Assembly (NCBI RefSeq): GCF_900142445.1 | Contig: NZ_FRAV01000008.1 | Coordinates: forward strand, 107,489-171,488 | DNA length: 64,000 nt | Source: Chryseobacterium polytrichastri | GTDB taxonomy: Bacteria > Bacteroidota > Bacteroidia > Flavobacteriales > Weeksellaceae | Direction: 5' to 3' | In this document: piece by piece, positions 1-14,458 of the stretch | Layout of the letters: the number at the start of each line of letters is the position of its first letter | Position numbering within the stretch: position 1 is the first letter of the stretch | Notes under the pieces: generated by a model | Database searches by the model: none | Told to the model about the DNA's origin: nothing | What the model saw: the letters and a program-made list of their open reading frames with translations, nothing else | Translations under genes and position numbers: made by a program

Positions 1-66
1 TTCTTCACACGTTATGTGAAAAAATTGCTCGGTGTAACTCCGAAAGAATATAGAGAGCGGATATGA
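1..66 (+). CDS. C-terminal end of an AraC-family transcriptional regulator (partial)
   Basis: The window opens inside a reading frame that ends FFTRYVKKLLGVTPKEYRER followed by Ile and a TGA stop. This is the typical last helix of an AraC/XylS DNA-binding domain, where F-x-R-x-F-K-K-x-x-G-x-T-P-x-x-Y-R is the family signature. Only about 21 residues are visible, so the ligand-binding part, the start and the regulatory target lie outside the window. The next gene is on the other strand after nearly 700 bp, so no operon partner is visible. The family call is firm and the function unknown. Confidence 0.8.
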   Translation, partial: FFTRYVKKLLGVTPKEYRERI

Positions 67-398
67 AATAATTTTATTTGCGGTGTTTTTTGTCGAGCTC
101 TTGTCAGTTCAAATCTTATAGTGTCGGTTTTAGTGGTTGCATTACCATAACTTATAATGTCCAAATTTAAACAATGCGCCAATATGCACTATACACAATT
201 GCGCTAATGTTGTTTTAATTTCAATTAACTATTTACTAATCATTAATTTAAAATTTATCATATTTGGATAAACGCATAAATTTAAAAAATGAAAGAATGA
301 CGTTGAAGATTTTGCTAAAATATTTTATACTGTAGTGTAAACAAAAACAGCTTTAAACTTCTATTAGAATATCTAATTTAATTCTATGAATTATTTCA

Positions 399-413
399 AT
401 CGTTTTTTGAGAT
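399..413 (-). repeat. Array repeat copy 1 (left boundary)
   Basis: Exact ATCGTTTTTTGAGAT. It lies 335 bp beyond the stop of the 661-residue gene and forms the left end of the array. No further copy is seen to its left. Confidence 0.85.
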
Positions 414-701
414 TTATTTTGATTTAACGAATTTGTATTTCAATCCGAATATAGGTATAATTATTTATAAGTTTATTCTGCTTGTAATAATGAGCAAAAA
501 TATAATGATGCATCAAATAAGAAATGAATATACTTGTTTTAGTATCATTTTCATTTCAAATAATATTCTTAAAATAAATTAATAGACTTGACTTTAATAA
601 ATCTTAATTTGTCATTCTGTAGATTTAGTTTCTTCCTCACTGCAAACTCATTTTTAATGTAATTAATATATGATCTTATCTATACGAAACACATTAAAAA
701 A

Positions 702-721
702 GACTGTTTTTTTTAACAGCC
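702..721 (-). terminator. Rho-independent terminator of the 661-residue gene
   Basis: Read on the minus strand, GGCTGTT and AACAGTC form a seven-pair stem with one G-U pair and an A-rich loop, followed at once by TTTTTT. It sits 28 bp after the stop codon of the minus-strand gene. Confidence 0.7.
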
Positions 722-748
722 TTCTTTAATTTTAGAGAGATCAATGCA

Positions 749-2734
749 TTATTTTTTAATAAAAGTCTTTTTGAAAAATTGTCCATCTATGGTCTCAGCT
801 TTTAAAACATATACTCCTGGGGATAGAGTTGAAACATCAATAGTTTTAAAGTCTTTTATAATAAACATTTTCTTTCCTGATAAGTCATAAACTTCTGCCA
901 TAAGAATTTTTGAAACGGACGTTAGTGAAATACTAGTTTCAGCGGGGTTTGGAAAAATCTTTGTTTTTTGATCAAGATTTACTTCGTTTACATTTAAATT
1001 TCCGTAAATCAGATTTGCTGTGGCAACGTTTGAAACTAACCCATTGCCATTCTCAACGGTGTAGCTGAAGCTATCGTTCATCCAATTTAATCCTGTAGGT
1101 GTATACGTTACTGTTCCATTATTGTTAACCGTCAAAGTTCCGTAGAGAGGATACGATACAATTCTAATCAAAGTTGTTCCAGCTAAAGTTTGATCATTTG
1201 CAAGAATATTGAAAGTGTTTGCACCGCTACCGTTTTGAGTAAAGGTATCCGACACAGCCGTGGGTGGCATATTAATAGGTTGTTGTACAACTGCATTTCC
1301 AAGTTTTATTAAGAAACCGTCACTGTTACCTGCAGATGGATAATTAAAAATCGTCATGTCTTTAAGGTGTGTGTAGAATTGCCCGACTGTATAAATATTT
1401 CCGGATTTGTCTACTGAAATATCATATCCACGGTCGCCACTACCTGGTCCTATATAATCTTCGAGGTCAATCTGATTCCCTGATGGATCTAGAGCCCATG
1501 TGAAAACTTCTTCTCCATATCTGCCACTATAATCATTTACAATGATACCTTCAAAATATCCTGTTGCAAGCACATTATTGTTTTGATCAATTGCAAGTCC
1601 ATCGGCTCCATCAGCAAATTGTACTCCAAGGCTCTTCGCCCATAAATAATTTAAATTATTATCAACCTTTAATACGTAAGCATCAGTCATTCCATATAAT
1701 CCAAAAGATATAAGGGAATTTTGTGCGTTGGCAAAGTTAAAATCCACAGTACCACCAAAACTGCCAGTTATTAAAACATTGTTATTACTATCAATTTTCA
1801 CTCTTTGTGACCTTGCTAAATTACTTTGATTGGAGGCTGTAGTTACCCCTGCATTAACAAAATTTCCGTTACTGTCAAGCTTTAGAAGGTACGCTTGTCC
1901 TGTAGATGAACTAAGATTAAAAACACCTGTAGGGCTTGGATCAAAATCAGTTACTCCTTTATTATTTCCTGTAACAAAGACATTGAAATTAGAGTCAACA
2001 GCAATGGAAGTTCCTACATCACTTCCCATTCCCTGCGTCATCTTCGCCCAGATGAATTGTGCATCTTTGTCTATTTTCAAAATGAAGGAAGTGTCAATAT
2101 ATTCGCTTGTCATACTAAATATACCGGGAGTAATATCAAAATCAGCTGTTTTTCTGAAGCTACCAGTTACATACACTTTATCCAGACTGTCTACAGTAAT
2201 TCCAAACCCTCTGTCATACTCTATACCTCCTATACTGCCCGCCCAAACAAGCACTCCGTTTCTGTCCAATTTTGCTATAAAAATATCAGCATCTCCATTT
2301 GAAGTAAGCATTTTTATTCCTGTTGGGCTGGGGTCAAAATCGACACTCCCGTTAAAATGCCCAGTTAAGTAAATATTACCAGATGAATCAGTTGCCATTG
2401 AATTAACATAAGGAGTACCATCTGACGTAGCATTGGATGCAAAAGCTTTCATCCATTTAAGTGAACCATTTCCGGAATATTTTGCCACAAAGGCATCTGA
2501 TGATCCAGTGCTCACATAACTATTGGCAGAGGATGAAATATCAAAGTCTGAATTGCCTGAAAATTTTCCTGATACTACAACATCGCCATAAATATCTGTT
2601 GTAACATGATCGGCAATGTCGTATCCAGTCCCTCCAATATTTCCACCCCAACTGTAAGACGGAAGATAGGCTAATTGAGAGTAAGACATCATTGATGTCA
2701 TTATGCTAAAAAAGAGTAAAGATTGTTTTATCAT
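749..2734 (-). CDS. Secreted SBBP-type beta-propeller protein with T9SS sorting domain
   Basis: 661 residues, predicted to be secreted or surface-attached. The first ~19 residues (MIKQSLLFFSIMTSMMSYSQ) form a signal peptide. Residues ~30-480 hold about seven repeats of the pattern W-(x)-GG-x-x-x-D-x-(G/A), I-A-D-S-x-x-N-x-x-V-T-G-x-F-x-G-x-x-D-F-D, typical of SBBP beta-propeller proteins. Residues ~490-575 resemble a cadherin-like Ig domain (NDSFSYTVENGNG). Residues ~583-661 are a type A T9SS sorting domain (KIFPNPAETSISL, VYDLSGKK, LSPGVYVLKAE). It is followed by a terminator and is the leftmost member of the repeat-bounded array, with a repeat 130 bp upstream of its start. The domain call is solid; an adhesion or scaffold role is inference. 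Confidence 0.85.
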   Translation of the reverse strand: MIKQSLLFFSIMTSMMSYSQLAYLPSYSWGGNIGGTGYDIADHVTTDIYGDVVVSGKFSGNSDFDISSSANSYVSTGSSDAFVAKYSGNGSLKWMKAFASNATSDGTPYVNSMATDSSGNIYLTGHFNGSVDFDPSPTGIKMLTSNGDADIFIAKLDRNGVLVWAGSIGGIEYDRGFGITVDSLDKVYVTGSFRKTADFDITPGIFSMTSEYIDTSFILKIDKDAQFIWAKMTQGMGSDVGTSIAVDSNFNVFVTGNNKGVTDFDPSPTGVFNLSSSTGQAYLLKLDSNGNFVNAGVTTASNQSNLARSQRVKIDSNNNVLITGSFGGTVDFNFANAQNSLISFGLYGMTDAYVLKVDNNLNYLWAKSLGVQFADGADGLAIDQNNNVLATGYFEGIIVNDYSGRYGEEVFTWALDPSGNQIDLEDYIGPGSGDRGYDISVDKSGNIYTVGQFYTHLKDMTIFNYPSAGNSDGFLIKLGNAVVQQPINMPPTAVSDTFTQNGSGANTFNILANDQTLAGTTLIRIVSYPLYGTLTVNNNGTVTYTPTGLNWMNDSFSYTVENGNGLVSNVATANLIYGNLNVNEVNLDQKTKIFPNPAETSISLTSVSKILMAEVYDLSGKKMFIIKDFKTIDVSTLSPGVYVLKAETIDGQFFKKTFIKK

Positions 2735-2863
2735 ATAGTTAATTTTTTATTTAATTTGCAAATATATCAGTTGTTAAGAATTTACATTAGTCAAAGTAAA
2801 AACTAAACAAGAAAATTTTCTGCCCTGATTTTAAGTATTTTTCTGGTAACTCAAATCGATTCC

Positions 2864-2878
2864 ATCGTTTTTTGAGAT
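2864..2878 (-). repeat. Array repeat copy 2
   Basis: Exact ATCGTTTTTTGAGAT in the gap between the 661-residue and 154-residue genes. Confidence 0.9.
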
Positions 2879-2994
2879 ATTTACTATTACTTGTTGATTC
2901 TTGACTCAAATTAATCATCATTTTTTTTCACTAAACATTTCTTGTTTACAATGTAGTAAAAGGACTTATTATCGTACTACCAATCAATTTTAGA

Positions 2995-3459
2995 TCAATT
3001 AGCTTTTCGCTCATAAATATAATATATTAATTCACTTCCCATAAAAGGATTATCTTCAAGAAGATGCAGCCTATTACCTTCAATTTTTAATTTATAGCTT
3101 CTAATGATCTTACTTCCATCAGAAGCTCCTCCAATTAAATCGATCTTTAATTTATCATTTTTAGAATATAAAATTCCATTGTACCCCTCACGGTTAGGTT
3201 TAACAGTATTAGATTCTATATATCCGTTTCCTTTAAACTTTAAAATTCTAGATGTTTCATTCCTAAGCTCTGTAATTATTTTATAGTTTTTATCTGAAAA
3301 ATAAATTCCTATACATTGATAATATCCTATAGTGTCAATAGTTTTTAAAATATCTTTATTAAAATATTTTATATTTCTTAATGTTTGAGCACTACTCATA
3401 CAGTTCCCATAAAATAATATCAAAAAAAATACTAATATTTTAGTTGCTTTTTTTACCAT
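2995..3459 (-). CDS. Small secreted or lipid-anchored protein of unknown function (array gene 2)
   Basis: 154 residues. The N-terminus (two Lys, then ILVFFLILFYGNCMSSAQ) is a signal peptide; Cys20 could be a lipobox cysteine although GNC is not an ideal site. The mature part is rich in Lys, Asn and Tyr, with alternating strands such as YKIITELRN and NRLHLLEDNPFMG suggesting a beta-rich fold, perhaps lipocalin-like. No family was recognised. It is the only gene between repeat copies 2 and 3. Small secreted or periplasmic proteins of this kind are common among polymorphic-toxin immunity proteins, but nothing in the sequence proves that role. Confidence 0.6.
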   Translation of the reverse strand: MVKKATKILVFFLILFYGNCMSSAQTLRNIKYFNKDILKTIDTIGYYQCIGIYFSDKNYKIITELRNETSRILKFKGNGYIESNTVKPNREGYNGILYSKNDKLKIDLIGGASDGSKIIRSYKLKIEGNRLHLLEDNPFMGSELIYYIYERKAN

Positions 3460-3544
3460 GATGTAAAAGGATTTATTGTTTAATATTTGAAATAAGATTT
3501 TATTTCACCAAATAACACTTCAAACCTGGTTGAAGAGATATTTG

Positions 3545-3559
3545 ATCGTTTTTTGAGAT
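3545..3559 (-). repeat. Array repeat copy 3
   Basis: Exact ATCGTTTTTTGAGAT, 85 bp upstream of the 154-residue gene and about 170 bp after the stop of the 153-residue gene. Confidence 0.9.
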
Positions 3560-3728
3560 GCATTTTTTGTCTATGATACGTTTTTCAGCTACAAGAAGTT
3601 GACTATTTATAATTTATCTATTGGATAAATGTAGCGATTAAGGCATCACATTTCTAATCACTACATATAATTAAGCCATTTATTCTCTCGTCCAGGTTAC
3701 AATAATATAAAATGAGGTTTCTCGTTAC

Positions 3729-4190
3729 TCATGTTATACCTTTAGGCAATGCAATTATCTCAAGGAATCTCAATGCATTTTCAATAATGTATGGCCTTGT
3801 ACTTTCTTTTGGTTTCCAATCTTTATGAAGAAAATATCGAATTAGCTCGGCTATAACAGCCGGCCGATTCAAATTGATATCAACAGTTTGTTGCTCATTA
3901 ACAGGGTATGGTTTATTATTAGGTAAAGGAGATTCATACTTATACAACCAAATTACTCCATCATCGGGATAACCAACGCGCCATTTCTCTTTTTCTATAT
4001 CTGATTTAAGCGTTAAATTATCCTCTTCTCGAAACGAAAGTTGAAGTGGAGATTTTTTATGTCCTTCAAGGTAAATCACAACCTTTTCAACGCATTTTGA
4101 GTATTCATAATTTGTTAAATGAAGATGCAACCTTTTCCATAAATAAGTCTCATTGTCTATTTTAATTTTCCGTAATATATTTTTTTTCAT
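3729..4190 (-). CDS. Hypothetical cytosolic protein (array gene 3)
   Basis: 153 residues, with no signal peptide or membrane segment. It begins with a basic stretch (MKKNILRKIKIDNETYLWKR), continues with a probable beta region (VVIYLEGHKKSPLQLSF, GVIWLYKYESPLP) and ends in two helices (RPAVIAELIRYFL, YIIENALRFLEII). No family was recognised. It is alone between repeat copies 3 and 4. Size, solubility and position in an array of unrelated small genes fit an immunity-type protein; that is inference only. Confidence 0.6.
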   Translation of the reverse strand: MKKNILRKIKIDNETYLWKRLHLHLTNYEYSKCVEKVVIYLEGHKKSPLQLSFREEDNLTLKSDIEKEKWRVGYPDDGVIWLYKYESPLPNNKPYPVNEQQTVDINLNRPAVIAELIRYFLHKDWKPKESTRPYIIENALRFLEIIALPKGIT

Positions 4191-4290
4191 TAACTGTCTT
4201 TTTAAAATGTATTATGACTTTCAAATTTACAAATTGCGTCAATCTGATTTATATAAGTTATTTATGCGACTAATATAAAAATTTAATTTG

Positions 4291-4305
4291 ATCGTTTTTT
4301 GAGAT
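4291..4305 (-). repeat. Array repeat copy 4
   Basis: Exact ATCGTTTTTTGAGAT. Its last base is the first base of the complement of the stop codon of the minus-strand frame ending at 4305, so the repeat starts exactly where that frame ends. Confidence 0.9.
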
Positions 4306-4499
4306 TATAAAGTTTCAAATAATATTTTAATAACACAACTTAGTATACCTAAAACAAGTATCGTTTTTAATGTCCAATATTCAAATAGGTTAACGTCTTT
4401 ATTAATTCTAAATATTGTAGAATTTAGCCCATTATCAGGTTCTACATCAAGTAAATTTTTGACACTTTTTTTCTCTTCATTACTTAAATCTTCATTCAA
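4305..4499 (-). CDS. Short C-terminal membrane-anchored frame, possibly start-less gene fragment
   Basis: Frame of 64 codons from a TTG, extendable to ~76 codons back to a stop at 4533-4535, without any ATG. It contains an acidic helix (NEDLSNEEKKSVKNLLDVEP) and ends in one hydrophobic segment (TLKTILVLGILSCVIKILFE), so it looks like the tail of a C-terminally anchored membrane protein. The absence of an ATG suggests a 5'-truncated gene left in the array, though a TTG start is possible. It shares the block between repeat copies 4 and 5 with two other frames. Confidence 0.4.
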   Translation of the reverse strand: MNEDLSNEEKKSVKNLLDVEPDNGLNSTIFRINKDVNLFEYWTLKTILVLGILSCVIKILFETL

Positions 4500-4657
4500 A
4501 AATGATTTAAGCTTCTTTTCTAAATAATTTTTTCAATGATAATATGGTACAACGTTTATAGGTTTATATTTTGTCCGATTAAAAGCACTTCATTGTCGCC
4601 CGAGCACTAAGCAATTAAAAGGCAGAAACTTTCAAGAACCACGTCACCCGGCATAAT

Positions 4658-5080
4658 TCAAACCTGATGTTGTGTGCTGTGACTTTTTCTGTACTTGGTA
4701 TACAGTCGTAAAATTATTGGAGTCGTTGATAATATATAAATTCCAAAGATTATTTGTAAAACTATTTTATAATCATCAGAATTTCCAAATCTTTCAAATG
4801 TCAACCAATTTGTATTTATTAGTATATCTGAAACAATGATTAAATTAGAAATTATTAAAGCTGGCACAATACTTCTTAAAATTAAGATAATAGCTAAAAA
4901 ATCTAAGAAAGTTAACGATACCCAATATATGTTTTTCCACGTAGGCACATTTTTATTAAGTATTAAGCCATGATTTAACAAGTCCAATACATGAGTGGTT
5001 GTCCCAATGGCAAAACCTAAAACATAAATTGCTAGCAATATTTTTATTGTCTTAGGATATTCTAAAAAGTCTATTTTCAA
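4658..5080 (-). CDS. Four-helix integral membrane protein of unknown function (array gene)
   Basis: 140 residues with four hydrophobic segments: ~10-28 (IKILLAIYVLGFAIGTTTHV), ~50-66 (WVSLTFLDFLAIILIL), ~68-88 (IVPALIISNLIIVSDILI) and ~108-126 (IVLQIIFGIYILSTTPIIL). Loops are short and the C-terminus is basic. Starts at ATG 5080. No family was recognised; small four-helix proteins occur both as immunity proteins to pore-forming toxins and as unrelated membrane proteins. It lies between two frames that lack a good start. Confidence 0.6.
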   Translation of the reverse strand: MKIDFLEYPKTIKILLAIYVLGFAIGTTTHVLDLLNHGLILNKNVPTWKNIYWVSLTFLDFLAIILILRSIVPALIISNLIIVSDILINTNWLTFERFGNSDDYKIVLQIIFGIYILSTTPIILRLYTKYRKSHSTQHQV

Positions 5081-5115
5081 TTATTTTCGTTTTTTTTTGT
5101 CAAAAGTCTTAATGT

Positions 5116-5337
5116 CTAGTCGGTAACAGATTGTATTTCTGCTTTAAGATCATAGGCTTCTGTTATATAATTAGGGTTTAAGTTGATTGACTCTAACATT
5201 TTAGTAAGCCTTAAATCATCTAATCTTTTCAAAGATGCTACGAACCGTTTTGCCAAATCCTTAAATGAGTATAAATAAGCTGTTTGCATATCCGGGTTAT
5301 CACTTAGTGAACATTTCCCGATTTGAAAACTTTTCAA
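5116..5337 (-). CDS. Small helical frame without a proper start (array gene fragment)
   Basis: 73 codons from a TTG; the open frame reaches back to a stop at 5380-5382 with no ATG, adding helical residues (SKLLDRINTLSEELKSF). The visible product is all-helical (LAKRFVASLKRLDDLRLTKM) and ends AYDLKAEIQSVTD. It may be a 5'-truncated gene or use a rare start. The nearest repeat, copy 5, lies 47 bp above that upstream stop. No family was recognised. Confidence 0.4.
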   Translation of the reverse strand: MKSFQIGKCSLSDNPDMQTAYLYSFKDLAKRFVASLKRLDDLRLTKMLESINLNPNYITEAYDLKAEIQSVTD

Positions 5338-5428
5338 TTCCTCTGAAAGCGTATTTATTCTATCTAAAAGTTTTGAAATTTATTGGTAGCTTTAAGTTTA
5401 ATGAGTTTAATTACGATAAACCTTTTGT

Positions 5429-5443
5429 ATCGTTTTTTGAGAT
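5429..5443 (-). repeat. Array repeat copy 5
   Basis: Exact ATCGTTTTTTGAGAT between the start-less 73-codon frame and the 318-residue gene, whose stop lies 63 bp further. Confidence 0.9.
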
Positions 5444-5505
5444 TATTCTTAAATAATTTTTTTTGTTATGAAAATATTGTTGACAACCAAATCTAAACCT
5501 AAATA

Positions 5506-6462
5506 TTAATAATATTCTATTTCATAAAAATGTTCAGTAGTGATTGAATTGATTTCTCCTTCGCTAAGTACGTAAATTTTGTTGTTCCACTTATCGTATT
5601 TATATTGCGAACGACTTTCAGCTTTTGTTCCATTTTTGATGTCACCAGCGAAACGAAAACGGTGCATAGTGAGATCTCCCATTTCATTATATTCAAAAGT
5701 CTCAATACAGTACATATTTTTGTTACTGAAAGCGACACTCTTAATTTTTTGGTTTTTATCATTGTAACTGTTAAAAACTGTTCGATCTCTATAATTCTCT
5801 TTGATTAAATTATTATTTTCAGAATAAGAAAATTCTCTGAATCCCAATATCCGATCACCTTCACGCTCTTCAATCCTCACTTTGTTTTTATTATATAGTA
5901 AAAGTGTTTTGTAGGGTGAATTAGGAGCTTTACTGTTTTTATAATGAATCGGTCTATCTTGATGATCATATTCAACAGCTGTTTCAGATAATGCTAAAAG
6001 TTGATTCTTTTGATTAAACTGATATTTGTTATGATAAACGGTATCGTTTCTTACGACTCTGATTTTTTCTTTCAAACGTTTATTTTCATCATAATGATAG
6101 TAGGTATTAATATATCCTCGTTCATTAGTCAAGTATTTTTTTCCTTCCTGATCAAATAGATCATAAGAAAACAAATTCTTATCCCCATTGTGTGCATACT
6201 TAATATATGTTGAAATTTTTTTTATTTGTTTTACCCCTTTTTTAGGTAAAAATTCAAAAGGCTTTACCTGAAAGATGTACACCCCATAATCAAGATTTAA
6301 TGTAGGATTTACAAACTTAAAATTCTCAATTTCAACATCCTTAATGTTATCAAATTTAAGATCTTCAACATTAAAATAAATTCGGTCTGAAGAAGTGGAT
6401 GTGTTCTGAGAGTACATAACAACATTCAGTAAAATAAAGAATGAAAAGAAGATTGTTTTCAT
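5506..6462 (-). CDS. Secreted protein with RHS/MORN-like YD-type repeats (array gene)
   Basis: 318 residues. The first ~18 residues (MKTIFFSFFILLNVVMYSQ) form a signal peptide. From about residue 95 the protein is a run of short antiparallel-strand repeats with Tyr, Asp and Asn at turns (YYHYDENKRLKEKI, YQFNQKNQLLALSE, FREFSYSENNNLIKENY, TFEYNEMGDLTMHRF, SQYKYDKWNNKIYV), like the YD/RHS-like repeats of secreted Bacteroidota proteins. No enzyme motif is visible. It is alone between repeat copies 5 and 6. Role unknown. Confidence 0.65.
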   Translation of the reverse strand: MKTIFFSFFILLNVVMYSQNTSTSSDRIYFNVEDLKFDNIKDVEIENFKFVNPTLNLDYGVYIFQVKPFEFLPKKGVKQIKKISTYIKYAHNGDKNLFSYDLFDQEGKKYLTNERGYINTYYHYDENKRLKEKIRVVRNDTVYHNKYQFNQKNQLLALSETAVEYDHQDRPIHYKNSKAPNSPYKTLLLYNKNKVRIEEREGDRILGFREFSYSENNNLIKENYRDRTVFNSYNDKNQKIKSVAFSNKNMYCIETFEYNEMGDLTMHRFRFAGDIKNGTKAESRSQYKYDKWNNKIYVLSEGEINSITTEHFYEIEYY

Positions 6463-6553
6463 AAAATCGTTTCACAAAAATAACGAAACTATACAACATT
6501 TGGTAAAGATTTATCTACGATACAATTTTTTTTATTTTGTTATTTGTGTTGTC

Positions 6554-6568
6554 ATCGTTTTTTGAGAT
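6554..6568 (-). repeat. Array repeat copy 6
   Basis: Exact ATCGTTTTTTGAGAT between the 318-residue gene and the DUF2971 gene. Confidence 0.9.
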
Positions 6569-6681
6569 TTCATATTTATTTTTGTATTCAGTAATTAAAT
6601 TTTGATTTCTTTATATTAGTTATCTTTCAATTAAAATAAAAACTTCAATTTATATTTCATGTAGGTTGACTTAAGCCTATA

Positions 6682-7461
6682 CTATCTTTTATTTTTTAAT
6701 AACAGTTCAAACTTATTTTTACCAATTATAGCGTAAGTTATATTTGGTTTATAATTATTTATTTTAAGCAAATCAATATATTTTTTCACATCTTCATCCT
6801 TACAATTTGCGCCAAATGTTATTTCAACTAATGATTTTTTATCAAAATCGTATGTTCCAGTTTTTGGTTTAATTACTCGATATTCTTCTTCGTAACTCCA
6901 ATGCTCTGATTTTGTCTGAAACATAAATTCTAAAAGATCTTCCTGATTTTTAAGATAATTAAATTTTGGGTAATCTGCTTTGTATAATACTTTAATAGGA
7001 ACAGTGAATGTTTCTAATGATCTTAATAAATCAAATTTTAAGCATATTCCTTGATGCTTGTTAGTATAGTGTGACCACATTAGAATATTTAAATTTGTTG
7101 TAGTAAAACACGTAATTCCAGTTTTATTTGAAGAATCACTAACTTTATCCTGAACTGTTTTATTAAAAGAAGTAGGATTACGTTTTATTTGATCTAAAAT
7201 TATCTTTCTTTCAGTGCTGGTTGTACCATTAGAATTAACAAATTTTAAAATATCATTTTCTTCATAATTACTTAAACAAACTAATTGACAATCAAATGGA
7301 TCATTGAAATCTTTTGCACTACCAAACCAAATTGAATTTTCATTAATTACCTTTTCAGTATTTTCATTAAGTGCATAATACTTATATAAATATTTAGGAA
7401 GACTTCCTTGATTAATCATTTGTTCTACCAGTTGTATCTTATCTTTAGAAATTGTAAACAT
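6682..7461 (-). CDS. DUF2971 domain protein (array gene)
   Basis: 259 residues. The N-terminal half carries the hallmark of DUF2971: LYKYYALNENTEKVI, then IWFGSAKDFNDPFDC (residues ~23-56), a cytosolic family with the pattern (Y/K)Y...N...L.(F/A)S....FNDPFD. The centre has CFTTTNLNILMWSHYTNKHQG and the C-terminal part WSYEEEYRVIKP, both typical. The biochemical role is unproven; members are frequent in mobile and defence-associated loci. It has no membrane segment. The repeat lies only 5 bp upstream of its start codon, where a ribosome-binding region would be, so the repeat is part of its 5' leader. Confidence 0.8.
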   Translation of the reverse strand: MFTISKDKIQLVEQMINQGSLPKYLYKYYALNENTEKVINENSIWFGSAKDFNDPFDCQLVCLSNYEENDILKFVNSNGTTSTERKIILDQIKRNPTSFNKTVQDKVSDSSNKTGITCFTTTNLNILMWSHYTNKHQGICLKFDLLRSLETFTVPIKVLYKADYPKFNYLKNQEDLLEFMFQTKSEHWSYEEEYRVIKPKTGTYDFDKKSLVEITFGANCKDEDVKKYIDLLKINNYKPNITYAIIGKNKFELLLKNKR

Positions 7462-7466
7462 TTTTT

Positions 7467-7480
7467 ATCGTTTTTTGAGA
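7467..7480 (-). repeat. Array repeat copy 7
   Basis: ATCGTTTTTTGAGA followed by C instead of T, so 14 of 15 positions match. It immediately precedes the start codon of the DUF2971 gene. Confidence 0.85.
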
Positions 7481-7528
7481 CAGTTTCTGTTAATAATGTT
7501 AAAAATTTAAATCTTATTACAGAATTAT

Positions 7529-8164
7529 TTATTTCCGAATTTTTAATATTGCTTTTTCTAATTTATCTAATTTTTCAGAAATATTACCATTTTTTATATA
7601 AAAGTCTTCTAAATCCGAATCAGGTGATGTTGTCCTTCTGTAATGTTCAATAGAAATTGTTTTCTGCTTCTTTATTAATTTTCCATTTTCAGTTTGCGAA
7701 AATGAATACTCCACCGTATAATTTTTGGGTCTTTCATTACTTAAATTTTGAGCAAACATATCTGCAGTAGTAGATACATTGTATTGTATTTTTTCTTTTT
7801 TCTCAATAAAATTTAGATTTCGGTCTTTTATTATTTCATTATTAACCACTTTCAATTCTGGTGTAATAACAAAGTTCACTTTATAAGCTCTACTACCGCC
7901 AGTATTTTGAATTACTAACAATACTTTTCTACTAATTGTCTTTAGATCAAAATTAATATCAATATCGGCTTCATACTCATCTTCCTGTTTCCAGGAAATA
8001 CGTTGAGAATTGAAATTTGCAATAATTGCAGCAACTACCGCTAAGGCAGCAGCTGTAACTTCCCAATTAGAATTTATAATAGAATATACAATCAAAATTA
8101 TGGAACCAAGTAAAGCTGAATATTCTATACTTAGTATTAAAGTTCTTGAAATTTTTTTACTCAT
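7529..8164 (-). CDS. Membrane-anchored protein with cytosolic beta domain, unknown function (array gene)
   Basis: 211 residues. Two adjacent membrane segments at ~8-28 (LILSIEYSALLGSIILIVY) and ~33-50 (WEVTAAALAVVAAIIANF) are followed by a soluble domain, ~60-190, of probable beta-sandwich type (DINFDLKTISRKVLLVIQNT, YKVNFVITPELKVV) and a C-terminal helix (SEKLDKLEKAILKIRK). The tail resembles the generic two-helix-plus-beta hypothetical proteins common in accessory regions. No family was recognised. Confidence 0.6.
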   Translation of the reverse strand: MSKKISRTLILSIEYSALLGSIILIVYSIINSNWEVTAAALAVVAAIIANFNSQRISWKQEDEYEADIDINFDLKTISRKVLLVIQNTGGSRAYKVNFVITPELKVVNNEIIKDRNLNFIEKKEKIQYNVSTTADMFAQNLSNERPKNYTVEYSFSQTENGKLIKKQKTISIEHYRRTTSPDSDLEDFYIKNGNISEKLDKLEKAILKIRK

Positions 8165-8203
8165 ATTGCTTTTTAATTTGTATACAGAAACTTTAAGAGT
8201 TTA

Positions 8204-8218
8204 ATCGTTTTTTGAGAT
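8204..8218 (-). repeat. Array repeat copy 8
   Basis: Exact ATCGTTTTTTGAGAT. It begins just after the stop codon of the 101-residue gene (stop complement at 8222-8224) and 40 bp before the start of the 211-residue gene. Confidence 0.9.
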
Positions 8219-8221
8219 TAT

Positions 8222-8527
8222 TTATAATTCAAAACCAAATTCTCTCAAACATTTACAAACTGCTTTTAAATCAAATGCAGTTCCTCCAATTCCTGTTCCC
8301 ACTATATGACCACAGCGAAAATATAAGTTCTCGTGAATTTCTATTTGAACCTTATCAGACCTAATAGTCCAAAGGTTTCCTTCCCATTCATAATTTAGTT
8401 TTTGTTCGCAGAATTTATCAAATTTTTCTACAGAATATTCATCAGTAGTAGATAATTGGCTGTGCCAACCCATAGCAGAACAAAAAAGCAAATTTAATTG
8501 TGACTTAGTTAAATCTTTAAGATGCAT
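8222..8527 (-). CDS. Small hypothetical protein (array gene)
   Basis: 101 residues, soluble. Sequence features include a helical start (KDLTKSQLNLLFCSAMGW), an acidic centre, paired strands (EGNLWTIRSDKVQIEIHENL), a Cys-Gly-His turn (YFRCGHIVGTGIGGTAF) and a C-terminal helix ending CKCLREFGFEL. The GxGxGG segment is not placed like a nucleotide-binding loop. No family was recognised. It is flanked on both sides by the array repeat at a few bases, which makes it the clearest minimal single-gene cassette. Confidence 0.6.
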   Translation of the reverse strand: MHLKDLTKSQLNLLFCSAMGWHSQLSTTDEYSVEKFDKFCEQKLNYEWEGNLWTIRSDKVQIEIHENLYFRCGHIVGTGIGGTAFDLKAVCKCLREFGFEL

Positions 8528-8538
8528 TGTATTTATTT

Positions 8539-8551
8539 ATCGTTTTTAGAT
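8539..8551 (-). repeat. Array repeat copy 9 (degenerate)
   Basis: ATCGTTTTTAGAT, i.e. the core with two bases (TG) missing. It fills the 23-bp gap between the 74-residue and 101-residue genes, and its last T is part of the complement of the upstream gene's stop codon. Confidence 0.7.
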
Positions 8552-8775
8552 TATTTATTATTGTAATTTTCACTATAGTACGACTCTGCTTTTAATTCTT
8601 TTTGAGCATCGTTTAGACCACTATCTTTTAAAGCATCTTTGTATATTTGTTTAATAAAATTCTTTTCTTCTTCAAGAAAATTTAAAGCATTGTCCATAAG
8701 AAATGGTAATAACATTTCTCTGTTTGGATTAAAGTTTTTTGATCTTAAAAGTAATTTTCTAATTGGAGTATCCAT
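8551..8775 (-). CDS. Small helical hypothetical protein (array gene)
   Basis: 74 residues, predicted all-helical and charged (NALNFLEEEKNFIKQIYKDA, LNDAQKELKAESYY). No signal peptide and no family recognised. It is the most upstream gene of the array; the rightmost repeat lies 41 bp upstream of its ATG. Small size and composition would suit an antitoxin-like or immunity-like protein, but there is no direct evidence. Confidence 0.5.
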   Translation of the reverse strand: MDTPIRKLLLRSKNFNPNREMLLPFLMDNALNFLEEEKNFIKQIYKDALKDSGLNDAQKELKAESYYSENYNNK

Positions 8776-8816
8776 AAATATTGTTTTTTATTAATTATTT
8801 TTTTATTCTCCTATTT

Positions 8817-8831
8817 ATCATTTTTTGAGAT
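8817..8831 (-). repeat. Array repeat copy 10 (right boundary)
   Basis: ATCATTTTTTGAGAT, one substitution from the core. It is the last copy; 13 bp later the unrelated attC-like element begins, so the two cassette types abut here. Confidence 0.8.
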
Positions 8832-8844
8832 TTTAATAGCAATT

Positions 8845-8980
8845 ACAACGGTTTGCAGCTTGGCGAAGTGGCGGCTTTCGAAGTAAAAATACTGAGTTTT
8901 GCCCAAAAGTTTAATCTAAGAACTGCCGTTGAATTTAGCACTGAAACCGCCATTTCGCCAAACTGCTGTTATGCGTTCGT
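8845..8980 (-). repeat. attC-like imperfect palindrome A
   Basis: An inverted repeat of ~24 bp arms: 8855-8879 (GCAGCTTGGCGAAGTGGCGG...) and 8943-8966 (...CCATTTCGCCAAACTGC), separated by a 63-bp loop. On the minus strand it is bounded by GCATAAC on one side and GTTGTAA on the other, laid out like the inverse core and core of an integron attC site. It directly follows the stop of the GHKL-ATPase gene, as attC follows its cassette gene. Its first ~39 bp are nearly identical to element B. Confidence 0.65.
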
Positions 8981-8999
8981 GCTTCTGCTTGGTCTATCG

Positions 9000-11699
9000 T
9001 CAAATTATTTGTGTCTTAATGTTTACGATTAAGTTATTAAAAAGGAGGTGATTGTCGGTTAGAATGTTTTTTGAAACCATAACTCTAACGTCTTCCCTTA
9101 AATTCACAAACAACTTCACTTCATTTGGATTAAATCTAATTTTGTCGAAAGTTGCATTGTCGTTAAGTGCAATTTTTAAATGGTCGGTAATGTTTTCCTT
9201 ATACATCAGGTTTTGTCTAATAAAGTCGGGTGTAATTTCACCATCTGAAACAGGTCGTTCAATCATGCAGATTGCAAAACGACTTGGTTTTTTAACGGCT
9301 TTTTCTGCCTGACTAACAGCAAACTTGAAAGGTTCGGTAGAACCATTGGCAAATGATTTTAGTTCTACAAACATTGACTGTCCATTTTTTGTATTCCTAA
9401 TTTCAAAATCATGTGAGCCCCAACCTTGGTGTATTATTTCCGCTTCAATACCTTCTTGTAAAAGAGCTTCTTTAAAAACCAGTTCCACGTTTTCGCCAAT
9501 TCGCTTTAAATAGTCAAAGTGTAATTTGTCTTCAAGTAGTTCTCTTGCATGTTCCATAATTCCTTCCATAGAACCAATTTGACCTACTATTTGAACCAGT
9601 TCCTTGATGGAATTTACATTATTTGAAATTGCATTGATTTCTGAATCGGAAAGATTTGATTCTGCAAGTTTGGCAAGAGATTGCAACTTTCCGCTTTGAA
9701 CAATTACAAAAGCCTGGTCTCGTTTTTCATCGTCAAAAGTTTCTAAAAATAGTTGCGGTCTATGGCTTGCAAACCATTTAAACATTTCCTTTAATTCTTC
9801 TATTTCCAAACCTGAATCATTGAACCATTTGAACGTAAGTCGTAATGCAGTTAAATATGATTTTGATTCTCTGTCGCCACTAAATTCACTAAAGCCATCA
9901 TCAATTACTTTTGCGATGCTCTTGTTGCCTTTACTTTTTTCTCTTTTTAGTAGCGTTGTGTTTATTTCAAAATCTTTATGAAGTAGGATTTCTTTATAGT
10001 CATTGCCTGTAATTAGTAAATGAATTTTAAAAAGACCATCTTCACTATCATCAATTCCTTCGTCCCAATTAATTTCATCTTTCCTATGAAGGAATTTATC
10101 AAGTTGATTTGGAATGATGCTGTATTTGTCAAGGAAATTATCATCGTATTTCAAAGTAAACTCAATGAGTTCATTAAGCCATTTTGTAGAGTCACTAAGC
10201 TTTGTTGAAAGAGTTGGCAAATCTCCAAGTTTGCTCACTTCATCAAGTAAAAAGTCAACAGTAAATTTATTTTTTGTGAAAATGCTGAAATCAATTGCAT
10301 TATACCAGTTCAAAAAATTAATTTCTTCTGGAGTTTTATTTGGTTTAAAGCCTGTAACTGATTTATAGAAACTAAGCAAAAATTGCAAATGAGTTTCTTT
10401 TTGCATCTCGTCCGCTGGAATGTATGGGAAAAGGGTGTCTTTTAAAAGAATTCTTTCCGAATAACTGTCCACAATTTTAGCGTTAAGTAATAAGTCTTTT
10501 ATTTTATCAAGGATATTAGTTTTGTACCATGTTTTATCTGTTTCATTTTTCAAATGTATTGTTGGGCAATTCAATAGGTAAAAGCAATCTTTTACAGACT
10601 CATTTGAAACATGGGTAATTAGTTTGGAAAAAGCGACAACTGCATTTTTGATAATATTTCTATTCGGAACGTCATTATTGCTAAGGTTTATCCCATCTCG
10701 TTCATTTTTTGGAATAAATGACTTTGAATTAATTACAACAGGAAAACTAAAGTCTTCCGTTCCAATCATTGGCAAAGAGCAAAATAGTTTAGTTATACTT
10801 TTAGGATAAGGTAAAATCTTTCCTTGTTGAATATTCACTATTATTTCAGTTCCTTGTTCATTGAATATTTTAAGATTTATTTCTTCGGGTTCTTCATTTT
10901 CTTTTAGCCCAATTGTTACAACGCTTACATCAACTGCATCAGTTGTTCTATTTTTTATTGAAAACCGTTTTGATTTTGATTGAAAAAAATCATTGCTCTG
11001 GTTGTCTATTGTTACAGATTGAACCTTGGGCATGAAAGCAAGAGTGTAGGGAAGTACATCGGTAACATATTCTAACCCTTTATTGACTATTTCTATTGGG
11101 TTTATATTGTCAAGATGAATAGTTAAATCGTATGTGAAAACTGTATTGAATTCTTTGGGATTATAATCTATGGTTTGGACATTTTGGTTAAGTTCTTTAG
11201 ATGAATCTTGTATTGATTTTTTAAGAGCTTCTTTATCATTGTATTGAAGTCTATTTAAATCAAACTTAAACTTTGAATATGAATCTTGTATTCTTTCAGA
11301 TTTAATTACACCTTCTACTGTGATTTTTGCTGAAAGAATATGTGTTGATATGAAGCCCGTTCCAAACTGTCCTATCATATCCTTATCTTTTAATTCTTCG
11401 CTGTCTTTTCCTGAATCAGGGGCAATTAAATTTTCTGTATCAATTGGTCTAAATGGGTTGCCGTTGTGCTTGAATATAATTTTGTTTTCTTGCAATTCTA
11501 AAATTATGTCAACTGTGTCATTGTAGTCACTTGCATTTTGTAGAAGTTCCCAAAACCACCTCCTTTGTAAATCTAAAACGTTGCTGGGAATCGGCACTAA
11601 CTTTTCAAGTAGTCTTTTAGCTGGTATATTTAATCTTTGTTGCTCTCTTGCTTCTTCTAATTCAGAATGAATGTTTTGTTGTTGGAGATTCTCGTTCAT
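9000..11699 (-). CDS. GHKL-ATPase protein with C-terminal PD-(D/E)XK/NOV-like nuclease domain
   Basis: 899 residues, cytosolic. The N-terminal ~250 residues are an Hsp90/sacsin-like GHKL ATPase: N-box ELLQNASD (E51, N55), HNGNPF (78-83) in place of the DNGxG box, and GQFGTGFIS (110-118) as the ATP lid. The middle is a large helical region without recognised motifs. The C-terminal domain has GSHDFEI (D764) followed by VELKSF (E779, K781), the spacing of a PD-(D/E)XK nuclease as in Protein NO VEIN-type domains. Such ATPase-nuclease fusions are often found with phage-defence genes. It is followed by attC-like element A and preceded by element B, so it has the form of a mobile cassette. Nuclease activity and defence role are inferred. 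Confidence 0.75.
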   Translation of the reverse strand: MNENLQQQNIHSELEEAREQQRLNIPAKRLLEKLVPIPSNVLDLQRRWFWELLQNASDYNDTVDIILELQENKIIFKHNGNPFRPIDTENLIAPDSGKDSEELKDKDMIGQFGTGFISTHILSAKITVEGVIKSERIQDSYSKFKFDLNRLQYNDKEALKKSIQDSSKELNQNVQTIDYNPKEFNTVFTYDLTIHLDNINPIEIVNKGLEYVTDVLPYTLAFMPKVQSVTIDNQSNDFFQSKSKRFSIKNRTTDAVDVSVVTIGLKENEEPEEINLKIFNEQGTEIIVNIQQGKILPYPKSITKLFCSLPMIGTEDFSFPVVINSKSFIPKNERDGINLSNNDVPNRNIIKNAVVAFSKLITHVSNESVKDCFYLLNCPTIHLKNETDKTWYKTNILDKIKDLLLNAKIVDSYSERILLKDTLFPYIPADEMQKETHLQFLLSFYKSVTGFKPNKTPEEINFLNWYNAIDFSIFTKNKFTVDFLLDEVSKLGDLPTLSTKLSDSTKWLNELIEFTLKYDDNFLDKYSIIPNQLDKFLHRKDEINWDEGIDDSEDGLFKIHLLITGNDYKEILLHKDFEINTTLLKREKSKGNKSIAKVIDDGFSEFSGDRESKSYLTALRLTFKWFNDSGLEIEELKEMFKWFASHRPQLFLETFDDEKRDQAFVIVQSGKLQSLAKLAESNLSDSEINAISNNVNSIKELVQIVGQIGSMEGIMEHARELLEDKLHFDYLKRIGENVELVFKEALLQEGIEAEIIHQGWGSHDFEIRNTKNGQSMFVELKSFANGSTEPFKFAVSQAEKAVKKPSRFAICMIERPVSDGEITPDFIRQNLMYKENITDHLKIALNDNATFDKIRFNPNEVKLFVNLREDVRVMVSKNILTDNHLLFNNLIVNIKTQII

Positions 11700-11772
11700 T
11701 AGCTTGCTTTTAGAATAAGTGTTTTGTTGGTTAATTTATTGTTATCGGGTTTAATACTGTCGTGCATGACGC

Positions 11773-11908
11773 ACAACGGTTTGGCGCTTGGCGAAGAAGA
11801 GGATTTCGAAGCGCTAAACTGTCAACCCAGCTCAAATGTTGATACGAGGCAGAAAGTTCAATTAACCACTGAACCAACTTTTTTGGCAAACGCCTGTTAG
11901 CGGTTCGG
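11773..11908 (-). repeat. attC-like imperfect palindrome B
   Basis: A second member of the family: arms 11783-11802 (GGCGCTTGGCGAAGAAGAGG) and 11874-11894 (CCAACTTTTTTGGCAAACGC...). On the minus strand it begins CCGCTAACAGGCG and ends CAAACCGTTGTGCG, again inverse core and core. It directly follows the stop of the 402-residue gene. GTTGTGC differs from the integron core GTTRRRY at one position. Confidence 0.65.
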
Positions 11909-11933
11909 TGTTTTTTTATTTCAGTTATAGTTG

Positions 11934-13142
11934 TCAAATTGTCGGAAAGTGAAAAAGCATTACTTCAACTTGAATCTTTTTTTTGCTGTCGTCTGGCAGA
12001 ATAAATTCATAGTTAATAGAATGTTCGTATGTGTCATTTATATGGCTAAAGTAATTTTTGTGTTGAGTAATTTCGGTTTTTATTGTGCTTACAATATTTG
12101 TCAATTCTTTTTGATTAACAAAAAATATTAACGCTGTCTTAGAGTCTCTGTGTGTTAAATAGCCCAAAAGTTGGTCAATAGCCTTTAAAAATTCCTTTTG
12201 ACCTTTCCAAAATTTACATTCTGCTACAAAAAGATTTGTTCCGTCTTTAGCATATTTCAAGAGAATGTCTGTCTTACCTTTTTTGTTGAATGCTTCACCA
12301 ACACCTGTAGTTGCTTCATATCTTGTTTCAAGGAATAGCAAAAAAACATCTCTTAAATCTTCTTCGTGTTTATCTTTGTAAATTGAAGGCTTTCGCTCTA
12401 TTGCTTTTCCAACATTATACAATACCTCCCTAATGTCTGCATAAACTTCTTGTTGAAGAATTGGAACTTTTTCTTTCGCTACAGTTTTGCTTGTTTCTGT
12501 CGCTGGTGTTGGAATTGCTTTTTTTACAATAGTTGGAGGAAGTAAATATTCTGTTGATTTTGGATTTACTTTCAATCCAATTTTTTCCATAAAGTCAAAC
12601 TTTTTTGAAACAACTTCTTTTCTACTTTCTATGGATTGTTGAATTAAAGTTTCAAGTCGGTCATTCCAAGGTTTAATTTCAGCGTGTATCGTTGGTAAGT
12701 TTGTACTCACCGTCCCAATGATTTTGTTTATTTCTGAAAAATATGCATTCTCATCAAATTGAGTCAATGTGATAATTGCTTTAATATTTGATTTACCAAT
12801 GACTACGTTTTTATCGAGATAAACAACTGTTGAATGGGAAGGCATACAATAGAATAAGTTGTAGTCACCTTCAAACGGAATAGTTACTGTAATCTCAACA
12901 ACGTTTCGATTATACATTTCTCCCCAATCATTCCTGATTTGTCTTGTTGTTTCTCTTGGCTGTGACGGCTCAGGTTGACCGATTATGATTGGATATATTG
13001 TGAATTCATTTTTTATTTTTTCGACAAGTTCTATAATATCCGTGTTGTCAGTTACTTCTAATTTGTCAATATGTTGTAAAAAGGATTTTCTTTGATTAGA
13101 TAACACTTCACTCAAATAATATTTTTGAAATAAGTCACTCAT
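11934..13142 (-). CDS. PD-(D/E)XK nuclease-like protein
   Basis: 402 residues. The N-terminal ~190 residues are an unrecognised alpha/beta region; a Pro/Thr/Lys-rich linker (~200-230) follows. The C-terminal domain (~235-402) is a restriction-endonuclease-like fold: RDVFLLFLETRYEATTGVGE, then GKTDIL (D292) and VAECKFW (E308, K310), the D...ExK catalytic triad, then a Q-helix-like IDQLLGYLTHRDSKTALIFF. Whole-protein homologues are generally annotated only as hypothetical. It lies upstream of the GHKL-nuclease gene on the same strand, separated by attC-like element B, so it reads as a separate cassette. DNA targeting is inferred from the fold. Confidence 0.7.
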   Translation of the reverse strand: MSDLFQKYYLSEVLSNQRKSFLQHIDKLEVTDNTDIIELVEKIKNEFTIYPIIIGQPEPSQPRETTRQIRNDWGEMYNRNVVEITVTIPFEGDYNLFYCMPSHSTVVYLDKNVVIGKSNIKAIITLTQFDENAYFSEINKIIGTVSTNLPTIHAEIKPWNDRLETLIQQSIESRKEVVSKKFDFMEKIGLKVNPKSTEYLLPPTIVKKAIPTPATETSKTVAKEKVPILQQEVYADIREVLYNVGKAIERKPSIYKDKHEEDLRDVFLLFLETRYEATTGVGEAFNKKGKTDILLKYAKDGTNLFVAECKFWKGQKEFLKAIDQLLGYLTHRDSKTALIFFVNQKELTNIVSTIKTEITQHKNYFSHINDTYEHSINYEFILPDDSKKKIQVEVMLFHFPTI

Positions 13143-13181
13143 ATTTTGTTTTCTGTTTGTTATTTACACTGACCGCTAACT

Positions 13182-13210
13182 TTTGTCTTTACGCATTGCG
13201 TAAAGACAAA
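13182..13210. repeat. Perfect 29-bp palindrome next to an attC-like core
   Basis: Arms TTTGTCTTTACGCA and TGCGTAAAGACAAA with a single centre base. It abuts GACCGCTAAC at 13171-13180, whose complement GTTAGCGGTC matches the core end of the attC-like elements (CCGTTGTGCGTCA). It may be a truncated third element or the upstream boundary of the 402-residue cassette. Confidence 0.6.
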
Positions 13211-13433
13211 CTATATGATATTGGCAAAGCCATTTATGCTACTATTTTTTGACAGCCTATTCATTTTTTTAAGGCTTTCAAAGCATAAATCTAAAAATAT
13301 AAATTTTTATCACTTAAAAGTGATTTTTTATTTTTATAGTTAAAATTTGATTAATTCACTAATGTAATAATAAGAATTATTTGGTGTTTACGGCAATCCG
13401 TATTTATACGGAAATCATATATAAAAACTTGAT

Positions 13434-14039
13434 TTATTTTTTAATTCCCATTTTTTTTATTTCTTCATCAGTATGATGATCAAGAATTTTAGCATACCTG
13501 TAAAATGTTGCCCTGGTCAATCCTAAGGGTTTGTAAATATCTTCCGGACGTAGTGTTGGATCTTTATAAATTGAGCGTAGAAGTAATAGCTTTGAAATTG
13601 TTTCTGTGGTATAACCTTTTGGCCTTCCTCCTGTTCTTCCTCTTGCTCTGGCAGATTGCAATCCTGCATTGGTTCTTTCTCTTATCAACTCCCTTTCGTA
13701 CTCAGCAAGAGAAGCCATTAAATTTAAAAATAGCCTGCCATTAATCGTTGAAGTGTCAACACCATCTACAAGACCTTTTATTATAATTCCTTTGTCACTT
13801 AAACTTAAGACAAGATCAATGATATTTTTTAAACTTCTACCCAATCGATCAAGTCGCCAAACATACAATTCATCACCTTCCCGAAATTGTTCAACCATCT
13901 TGTCAAGCTCAGGTCGATTTTTTGTAGCGCCTGAAATTTTCTCCTGATAAATTTTCTCACAACCAGCTTTTTCTAAAGCTTCAATTTGCAAATCCAAATT
14001 TTGATCTTTGGTTGAAACCCGTGCATATCCTATTTTCAT
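13434..14039 (-). CDS. Serine recombinase (resolvase/invertase family)
   Basis: 201 residues, the usual size of a small resolvase/invertase. The catalytic domain starts MKIGYARVSTKDQ with Ser9 as nucleophile; the arginine cluster is in YVWRLDRLGRS, and the E-helix follows (LMASLAEYERELIRERT). The linker ARARGRTGGRPKG leads to a C-terminal helix-turn-helix (LRPEDIYKPLGLTRATFYRY). It catalyses site-specific recombination at short inverted crossover sites, commonly in transposons or phase switches. It is alone on its strand beside the two cassette blocks. Whether it acts on them is unknown; classical cassette arrays use tyrosine recombinases. Confidence 0.9.
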   Translation of the reverse strand: MKIGYARVSTKDQNLDLQIEALEKAGCEKIYQEKISGATKNRPELDKMVEQFREGDELYVWRLDRLGRSLKNIIDLVLSLSDKGIIIKGLVDGVDTSTINGRLFLNLMASLAEYERELIRERTNAGLQSARARGRTGGRPKGYTTETISKLLLLRSIYKDPTLRPEDIYKPLGLTRATFYRYAKILDHHTDEEIKKMGIKK

Positions 14040-14101
14040 AATTTGTTACATTAAACTCATACGTCATAAATTTATGAAACTGTGTTTAGTGATACGAGAT
14101 T

Positions 14102-14299: not shown

Positions 14300-14458
14300 G
14301 ATAATCTTTACCACGCCATAGGTCAATATTTACTCTTACATTAATCTGAAGGTAGGGTAGTTAAAGATTTGATATCTAATGATAAAAGAAGCGATGTTTT
14401 TTTTATAGTATAGAAATTAATTGCTGATTTTGAAAGTAAAAGGTGCAGATGAAAAATA

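Follow-up and report, generated by a model that had tools for sequence, protein, structure and literature searches.

The stretch analyzed here (the window) comprises 64 kb of contig NZ_FRAV01000008.1 from Chryseobacterium polytrichastri, the source genome, in which a run of minus-strand genes is separated by copies of a 15-bp repeat and preceded by a gene for a small serine recombinase. Exact search found seven copies of the repeat (ATCGTTTTTTGAGAT) in the 64 kb, all on the plus strand and all in gaps between minus-strand genes, while 100 dinucleotide shuffles gave a mean of 0.01 exact copies and never more than 1. Read on the gene strand, the repeat is ATCTCAAAAAACGAT, designated R'. Variants at 7467 and 8817 each carry one mismatch, and that at 8539 is a 13-bp form with two bases fewer. 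When up to 3 mismatches were allowed, 15 motif copies were obtained against 9.0 expected, a number reached in 7 of 100 shuffles and hardly above chance. An earlier note on this DNA, made from the sequence alone, had listed the seven exact copies and the three variants, all of which were recovered, and its observation that the 64 kb hold no further exact copy was borne out.

Several copies lie close to coding sequence. R' at 4291-4305 shares bases with the stop codon of the open reading frame (ORF) ending at 4305, the shortened R' at 8539-8551 touches the ORF ending at 8551, R' at 8204-8218 is 3 bp from an ORF end at 8222, and the variant at 7467 is 5 bp from a start codon at 7461. The earlier note had described these contacts correctly (copies 4, 8, and 9 at or near stop codons and copy 7 near a start). 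It had drawn the array too narrowly, at 399-8831: an exact copy 3.6 kb before the window start indicates that the array continues past the window, and those coordinates leave out the recombinase gene at 13434-14039. Features are collected in Table 1.

Table 1. Coordinates of the repeats, cassettes, and recombinase-associated features in the window
Feature	Coordinates	Strand	Basis or remarks
R'	399-413	-	exact copy; end of last window cassette
R'	2864-2878	-	exact copy
R'	3545-3559	-	exact copy
R'	4291-4305	-	exact copy
R'	5429-5443	-	exact copy
R'	6554-6568	-	exact copy
R', one mismatch	7467-7481	-	mismatch-tolerant search
R'	8204-8218	-	exact copy
R', shortened by 2 bp	8539-8551	-	13-bp form
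R', one mismatch; first repeat after recombinase region	8817-8831	-	mismatch-tolerant search
Cassette: 661-aa secreted protein (SBBP repeats, Por secretion tail; ORF 749-2734)	399-2878	-	end-to-end copy in G093 (L096), 91%, unrelated flanks
Cassette: 154-aa protein (ORF 2995-3459)	2864-3559	-	R' at both ends; no listed repeat-to-repeat match
Cassette: 153-aa protein (ORF 3729-4190)	3545-4305	-	end-to-end copy in G081 (L170), 91%, unrelated flanks
Cassette: ORFs of 64, 140, and 73 aa	4291-5443	-	second copy in same genome, L022:9419-10423
Cassette: 318-aa protein (ORF 5506-6462)	5429-6568	-	end-to-end copy in G011 (L086), 84%, unrelated flanks
Cassette: DUF2971 protein (ORF 6682-7461), PADLOC candidate PDC-S31	6554-7481	-	Pfam and PADLOC profile matches
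Cassette: 211-aa protein (ORF 7529-8164)	7467-8218	-	84% copy in G059 (L057), from upstream R' over ~92% of length
Cassette: 101-aa protein (ORF 8222-8527)	8204-8551	-	ORF between R' copies
Cassette: 74-aa ORF (8551-8775)	8539-8831	-	ORF list
GC-rich imperfect palindrome between first R' and 899-aa gene	8850-8990	.	by eye; copies elsewhere
899-aa TmtA-like protein (PADLOC, E 5.4e-145), cargo beside recombinase	9000-11699	-	profile match
402-aa protein, PADLOC candidate PDC-S54 (E 4.5e-98)	11934-13142	-	profile match
Proposed cassette recombinase: Gin-like small serine recombinase (PF00239) of 201 aa	13434-14039	-	profile and neighborhood evidence
Second, inverted TTCTCAAAAT arm upstream of recombinase gene	14090-14109	-	aligned loci
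Left-end site (LE), AAAACG-GT-AGTATTTTGAGATTTT	14149-14172	-	TTTTGAGAT arm as in repeat, inverted

Repeat-bounded units recur beside different neighbors

Among 153 repeat-to-repeat segments of array loci, 16 pairs were homologous from end to end (80-100% identity), 6 of them supplied by a single 221-bp cassette. When 400 bp of flank were compared, 8 pairs were unrelated on both sides, 6 were unrelated upstream only, and 2 were similar on both sides. At the downstream border, all 16 pairs are identical at the final base of the repeat, compared with 11, 9, and 11 of 16 at the bases directly after. Four of the nine window cassettes have end-to-end copies elsewhere and a fifth is matched over ~92% of its length; an additional partial copy (82%) of the cassette at 5429-6568 occurs in genome G105 (L076). 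The second copy of 4291-5443 lies on another contig of the source genome, between rplL and rpoB, and matches in two pieces at 96% and 93%. Similarity starts and stops at R' at both ends, and the flanks are unrelated.

Related genomes also differ at the same place. In a sister genome (G106), the rplL-rpoB site, whose flank is 98% identical, holds a left-end site and a recombinase gene of a second group (group 2), the latter split over two reading frames, as well as a 1042-aa gene and other repeat-bounded genes. Genome G101 (L064) matches the anchor of the window array (recombinase, 402-aa and 899-aa genes, palindrome, and first repeat) with 97.5% identity over the 198 bp upstream of the repeat at 8817, and from the repeat on it carries a different first cassette. 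These comparisons support the proposal of the earlier note that the units are candidate cassettes, and they contradict the outcome it had named as refuting, namely, the same genes in the same order in all strains. The flank of the main window array found no match in G106. No empty rplL-rpoB site was established, as some relatives hold other genes there and others diverge; likewise, the left ends of the insertions in G101, G047, and G012 abut the same terminator, and no clean unoccupied chromosomal site could be aligned for them. A strain comparison in C. balustinum was uninformative because the plasmid region was 100% identical over 20,603 bp to one of the contigs of strain DSM 16775.

Two explanations of the repeat that need no dedicated recombinase bear on these results. 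A regulatory or structural element (promoter, terminator, or repetitive extragenic palindrome [REP]-like) kept by descent within a genomic island would fit the intergenic, co-oriented window repeats and their closeness to several start and stop codons. We find this scarcely credible, since homology between unrelated arrays begins and ends at the repeat, the same cassette has different neighbors, and the repeat is joined inside recombinase genes, fragments of which directly follow some repeats; moreover, window positions 1-15000 gave no Rfam match. Alternatively, cassettes could have moved by homologous recombination or illegitimate events in their flanks, leaving the repeat as a relic. Mismatched repeats and broken recombinase genes at many loci agree with such a history, which is nevertheless very improbable given that both flanks are unrelated in 8 of the 16 pairs and that 15 bp is a short stretch for general recombination to use.

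The source genome contains 10 exact and 9 one-mismatch copies of the repeat, including closely spaced groups of 2 and 3 on contigs C45 and C51, respectively, and lone one-mismatch copies on C4, C16, C30, and C93. Across the genus, the exact repeat is present in 79 of 148 genomes, compared with 7 of 148 for a reversed control pattern; in a sample of the family, it is present in 80 of 296 genomes and 3 of 33 genera. Frequent occurrence outside arrays, which the earlier note had set as an argument against its proposal, was partly observed. Among the 150 exact copies listed for 57 genus genomes, 77 fell in 28 clusters and 73 stood alone by exact match. Of 18 loci that were retrieved with a single exact copy, mostly selected for a recombinase close by, 15 also carry copies with 1-2 mismatches. 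Within multicopy loci, 171 of 173 copies point the same way, and an alignment of 64 copies confined strong conservation to the repeat and one following base. The plainest form was found in Epilithonimonas bovis, where a recombinase gene is followed by 14 co-oriented repeats within 6.1 kb (7 exact and 7 with 1-2 mismatches), mostly with a single small ORF between them; the AT of the repeat makes an ATG at 6 of the 14.

Other sequences next to the repeat were noted. The 221-bp cassette encodes a small protein (start MKNKKLLYI) and is 93-97% identical in four genomes (L065:6787-7007, L069:7239-7459, L098:4566-4786, and L104:7560-7780); the start of the unit after it is common to the copies. At L075, four similar 181-aa secreted-looking proteins occupy repeat-bounded segments that match one another (413-958, 5688-6233, 13517-14062, and 17418-17963). 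A 75-bp sequence (ATTANATTAGATTTTCTTCT...) follows the repeat at L064:9207-9280, L092:6334, L097:9819, G145:C9:482563, and G115:C31:8887, and a similar stretch exists without the repeat in some genomes. Immediately before the repeat, AACAATAGATAAAACTAA or a similar sequence (GATAAAATTAA) occurs at L022:11509-11550, L056, L070, and L103. Stretches related to the palindrome (TTGGCGAA.TGGCGG...CCGCCATTTCGCCAA) adjoin repeats in several arrays and also occur at window positions 11773-11811, L020:11126-11184, and L057:7890-8015. Contigs G018:C23:1-85 and G018:C99:1-85 both begin 70 bases before an exact repeat, perhaps reflecting an assembly break at a longer repeat.

A small serine recombinase is associated with the arrays

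The window recombinase has its catalytic domain first (Resolvase, residues 3-135), followed by a helix-turn-helix match at 138-182 that is below the cut-off. Among proteins of solved structure it is nearest to the DNA-invertase entries 4m6f and 3uj3, which we take to be Gin. The motifs YARVS and VWRLDR.GR, presumably catalytic, are invariant in 20 aligned homologues, one of which differs in a start residue near YARVS but outside the motif; the G106 copy, which is not part of this alignment, reads YARLS.

In a blastp comparison of the ORFs of 26 array loci, the small serine recombinase was the commonest gene family, present in 12. Proximity was scored for homologues at E≤1e-30 against the listed exact repeats (at least 150, in 57 genomes). 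A listed repeat lay within 10 kb of 29 of 66 recombinase hits, compared with 0.74 expected, and 26 of these 29 genes were upstream of the repeat and co-oriented with it; the hits include several pieces of one broken gene, and one piece from G099 was excluded. By genome, a homologue was detected in 33 of 42 with at least two exact repeats versus 29 of 104 others (Fisher p 2.7e-8, a guide only, since the genomes are related). By locus, the recombinase was upstream of or inside 12 of 28 clusters of at least two copies and 14 of 73 single copies.

The earlier note had proposed a search for a tyrosine recombinase near other arrays. Only 4 of 96 tyrosine recombinases lay within 10 kb of a listed exact repeat, in mixed positions and strands; these hits come from 11 of 15 searched genomes, the other four having no listed repeat positions. 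The source genome has nine PF00589 genes, none less than 20 kb from an exact repeat. The enzyme associated with the arrays is of the serine type, and a tyrosine recombinase was rejected as the engine. A tyrosine-recombinase system, either an integron with degenerate attC sites or a recombinase-associated acquired interbacterial defense (rAID) island, would have the same layout of recombinase, co-oriented short genes, and conserved intergenic sequence, as far as an excerpt of the rAID account describes it (PMC12247911), and three tyrosine recombinases do lie 8-10 kb from the one-mismatch repeat on C30. Beyond the lack of association, a hairpin common to R' regions was not found at the six regions folded (z-scores of -2.2 to 0.95), so that an attC-like structure was also dismissed, and no immunity family appeared among the best 25 of 87 cassette Pfam families. 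We give this explanation very little credence.

Outside the genus, recombinase homologues were found in Pedobacter and Sphingobacterium, where clear repeats are few. A separate repeat type considered for the group-2 recombinase (GTACATGAAACCGAC) was discarded: at 0-2 mismatches it was seen only at that group's own left ends and formed no array. Separately, on a Chryseobacterium shandongense plasmid typed as mobilizable (NZ_CP033916.1, L271, 12001-19458), genes for a restriction endonuclease and two Abi proteins come after a recombinase gene, and two repeats with one mismatch each are present.

Left-end sites and junction dinucleotides

In 19 aligned loci, the DNA preceding the recombinase gene has a conserved block that opens with GT-RGTATTTTGAGATT and includes the second inverted arm. 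The GT is present in all 19. TTTTGAGAT is exact in 12 (13 if L090 is counted, where the match falls just outside the arm), and the remaining 7 differ from it by a few bases. This left-end arm is the arm of the repeat (ATCGTTTTTTGAGATT read inverted). The bases preceding it favor AAAACG, with C at -2 in 17 of 20. LE fits the form AAAACG-GT-RGTATTTTGAGATT, a possible two-armed inverted site with a central dinucleotide; R' is conserved on one side only. Of 154 sites that match TCTCANAAAAC, 143 have AT as the dinucleotide of R'. A search pattern in which the dinucleotide was left free returned AT 106 times, GT 16 times, and four others once each; 14 of the 16 GT sites are left ends, namely, L101 and 13 that have the second arm. 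Because one left-end search had GT in its pattern, we base support for GT on the 19-locus alignment and the free-dinucleotide pattern. Two Dyadobacter loci have GA at the left end.

Homologues that are not joined to a repeat were compared at the position of the joint. AT was present in 11 of 15 independent junctions, compared with a mean of ~2 of 15 at 13 other upstream positions. This strict set leaves out 2-mismatch repeats, non-AT repeats, and homologues with R'-like upstream sequence (25 junctions in 15 clusters), and some of its homologues may still be decayed repeats; a wider set gave AT in 37 of 54 junctions, which are not independent and include some weak repeats. The AT at 11 of 15 joints suggests a serine recombinase that leaves a 2-bp overlap and has one specific arm.

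From these comparisons of sequence, we consider it likely that R' is the border of mobile cassettes and that the upstream serine recombinase joins, removes, and exchanges them. In the mechanism we propose, every cassette would terminate in R', that is, AATCTCAAAAAACG-AT, with the 14-bp arm bound specifically by the recombinase and the AT serving as the 2-bp overlap at which both strands would be cut. The sequence beyond the AT would be nearly free, so that a unit, perhaps as a circular intermediate, could enter either at an R' already present or at some other AT. At the inverted, related site before the recombinase gene (AAAACG-GT-RGTATTTTGAGATT), the matching dinucleotide is GT, and the mismatch between GT and AT would favor retention of the recombinase in place as the cassettes behind it are shuffled.

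A number of observations weigh against this interpretation. Recombination is deduced and has not been observed. No listed exact repeat lies within 10 kb of 37 of the 66 recombinase hits; conversely, a recombinase is out of reach of 16 of 28 clusters and of 59 of 73 single copies, 9 of the 42 genomes with at least two exact repeats have no homologue at E≤1e-30, and the rplL-rpoB site of the source genome, with its two cassettes, has none near the second copy. Group-2 recombinases (~46% identity) adjoin the same R', yet their upstream arms differ (GTCGGTTTC..TGTAC), and no left-end arm was seen in four Sphingobacterium loci whose recombinase is closely similar (83-86%). R' has a single conserved arm, unlike ordinary resolvase or invertase sites. 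Four of the 15 junctions are not AT (AC twice, AA once, and TG once). Finally, LE and R' differ in their dinucleotides, which leaves simple excision of the element as a whole without an explanation.

Some of these points, namely, the group-2 recombinases with their different arms, the multirepeat genomes and listed clusters without a recombinase, and the one-armed R', would be expected if the cassettes are real but are moved by another enzyme, such as a transposase or a trans-acting host recombinase, with the serine recombinase a co-travelling resolvase. We regard that as unlikely, although less so than the explanations above: the serine recombinase is the most recurrent family of the array loci, tyrosine recombinases are not associated, the conserved site preceding the recombinase gene carries the arm of the repeat, and a 2-bp overlap such as the one at AT is the mark left by serine recombinases.

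One further left end was noted at L213 (9999 onward), where the left-end flank (AAATCGGT) runs directly into recombinase codons that start near residue 43, as though the arm and the gene start had been deleted. The flank terminates in GT. A reading of this joint as left-end GT joined to a GT within the recombinase gene was dropped, as the parent's base at the joint was not established.

Cassette contents and relation to known systems

The 165 segments examined have a median length of 898 bp. An ORF of at least 50 aa is present in 149, and the longest ORF is co-oriented in 137 of these; 146 co-oriented cassette ORFs fall into 116 families. Profiles were scanned for 110 of 111 representative cassette proteins of at least 60 aa, one recombinase fragment being left out. 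The families listed, with the best 25 of 87 Pfam families among them, include putAbiC, AbiTii, Fic, KAP, Mrr, DUF1016/YhcG, PifA, and QatA, together with a beta-lactamase-fold hydrolase, transposase pieces, and metabolic enzymes. Phage defense is in part a theme of otherwise diverse contents. The earlier note had also suggested an orphan-immunity island. This suggestion found no support: those 25 Pfam families include none of polymorphic-toxin immunity proteins, and models of two window cassette proteins, one of only moderate confidence, gave no PDB fold match at E≤0.001. Seven of nine scanned window cassette proteins have no Pfam match. A word-based search of ~5.8 billion proteins found 5 homologues of the 101-aa protein; for the 153-aa protein, 87 were found.

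Gene-cassette arrays are known from tyrosine-recombinase systems, and the integron comprises the IntI tyrosine recombinase, attI, and attC cassettes. The arrays described here share with integrons a recombinase gene beside co-oriented, mostly single-gene cassettes with their sites, and recombinase-less arrays exist in both. They differ in having a serine recombinase that is upstream and co-oriented, and a 15-bp, unstructured, one-armed site instead of the folding attC. Gin/Hin invertases and Tn3/gamma-delta resolvases belong to the same protein family and have the same domain order but use full two-armed sites to invert or resolve; we know of no cassette capture by them.

In rAID islands of Bacteroidales, an excerpt of the published account places a tyrosine recombinase upstream of co-oriented short orphan type VI secretion system immunity genes with conserved intergenic motifs (PMC12247911). 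On that description, the likeness lies in the upstream recombinase, the array of short co-oriented genes, and the intergenic motif, and the differences are the serine recombinase, the mixed contents, and the flavobacterial host (Flavobacteriales). The system described here works like an integron or a rAID island but lacks the tyrosine recombinase that defines both. A parallel to the joining proposed here is IS607, for which the part of the account concerned describes joining through a 2-bp overlap with little target specificity and proposes one specific arm per junction (PMC4058570). As far as this account goes, IS607 shares the dinucleotide overlap and the single specific arm per junction (here AT in 11 of 15) but differs in the inverted domain order of its TnpA and its GG overlap, where the present enzyme has its catalytic domain first and the dinucleotide is AT at R' or GT at LE; the recombinase here also adjoins a cassette array.

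A broader proposal, which we judge to be evenly balanced between right and wrong, is that these arrays are an independently evolved integron. A resolvase-type serine recombinase would capture cassettes through one-armed sites with a 2-bp AT overlap, nearly any AT-flanked gene could become a cassette, R' x R' recombination would shuffle the units, and GT would anchor the engine, spreading defense-like and orphan genes in Chryseobacterium and Epilithonimonas, with repeat-recombinase pairs reaching Dyadobacter. A search of one open-access full-text library found no prior description of such a system. If the proposal is true, cassette capture arose independently with another chemistry. The repeat would then be a searchable tag for many orphan and defense-like genes in Flavobacteriia, and the enzyme might be of use as a recombinase whose site is very short and one-sided.

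Elsewhere in the window, several genes were judged by eye from translations. Large ORFs at 33910-39046 look like genes for Cas9 (1408 aa) and Cas1 (297 aa), and a 328-aa protein at 18686-19672 has a TIR-like C-terminal stretch (YDVFISHASEDK). The ORFs at 15923-17220 and 47256-50752 are related, the first apparently frameshifted, and a topoisomerase-like gene follows the second, as in conjugative elements.

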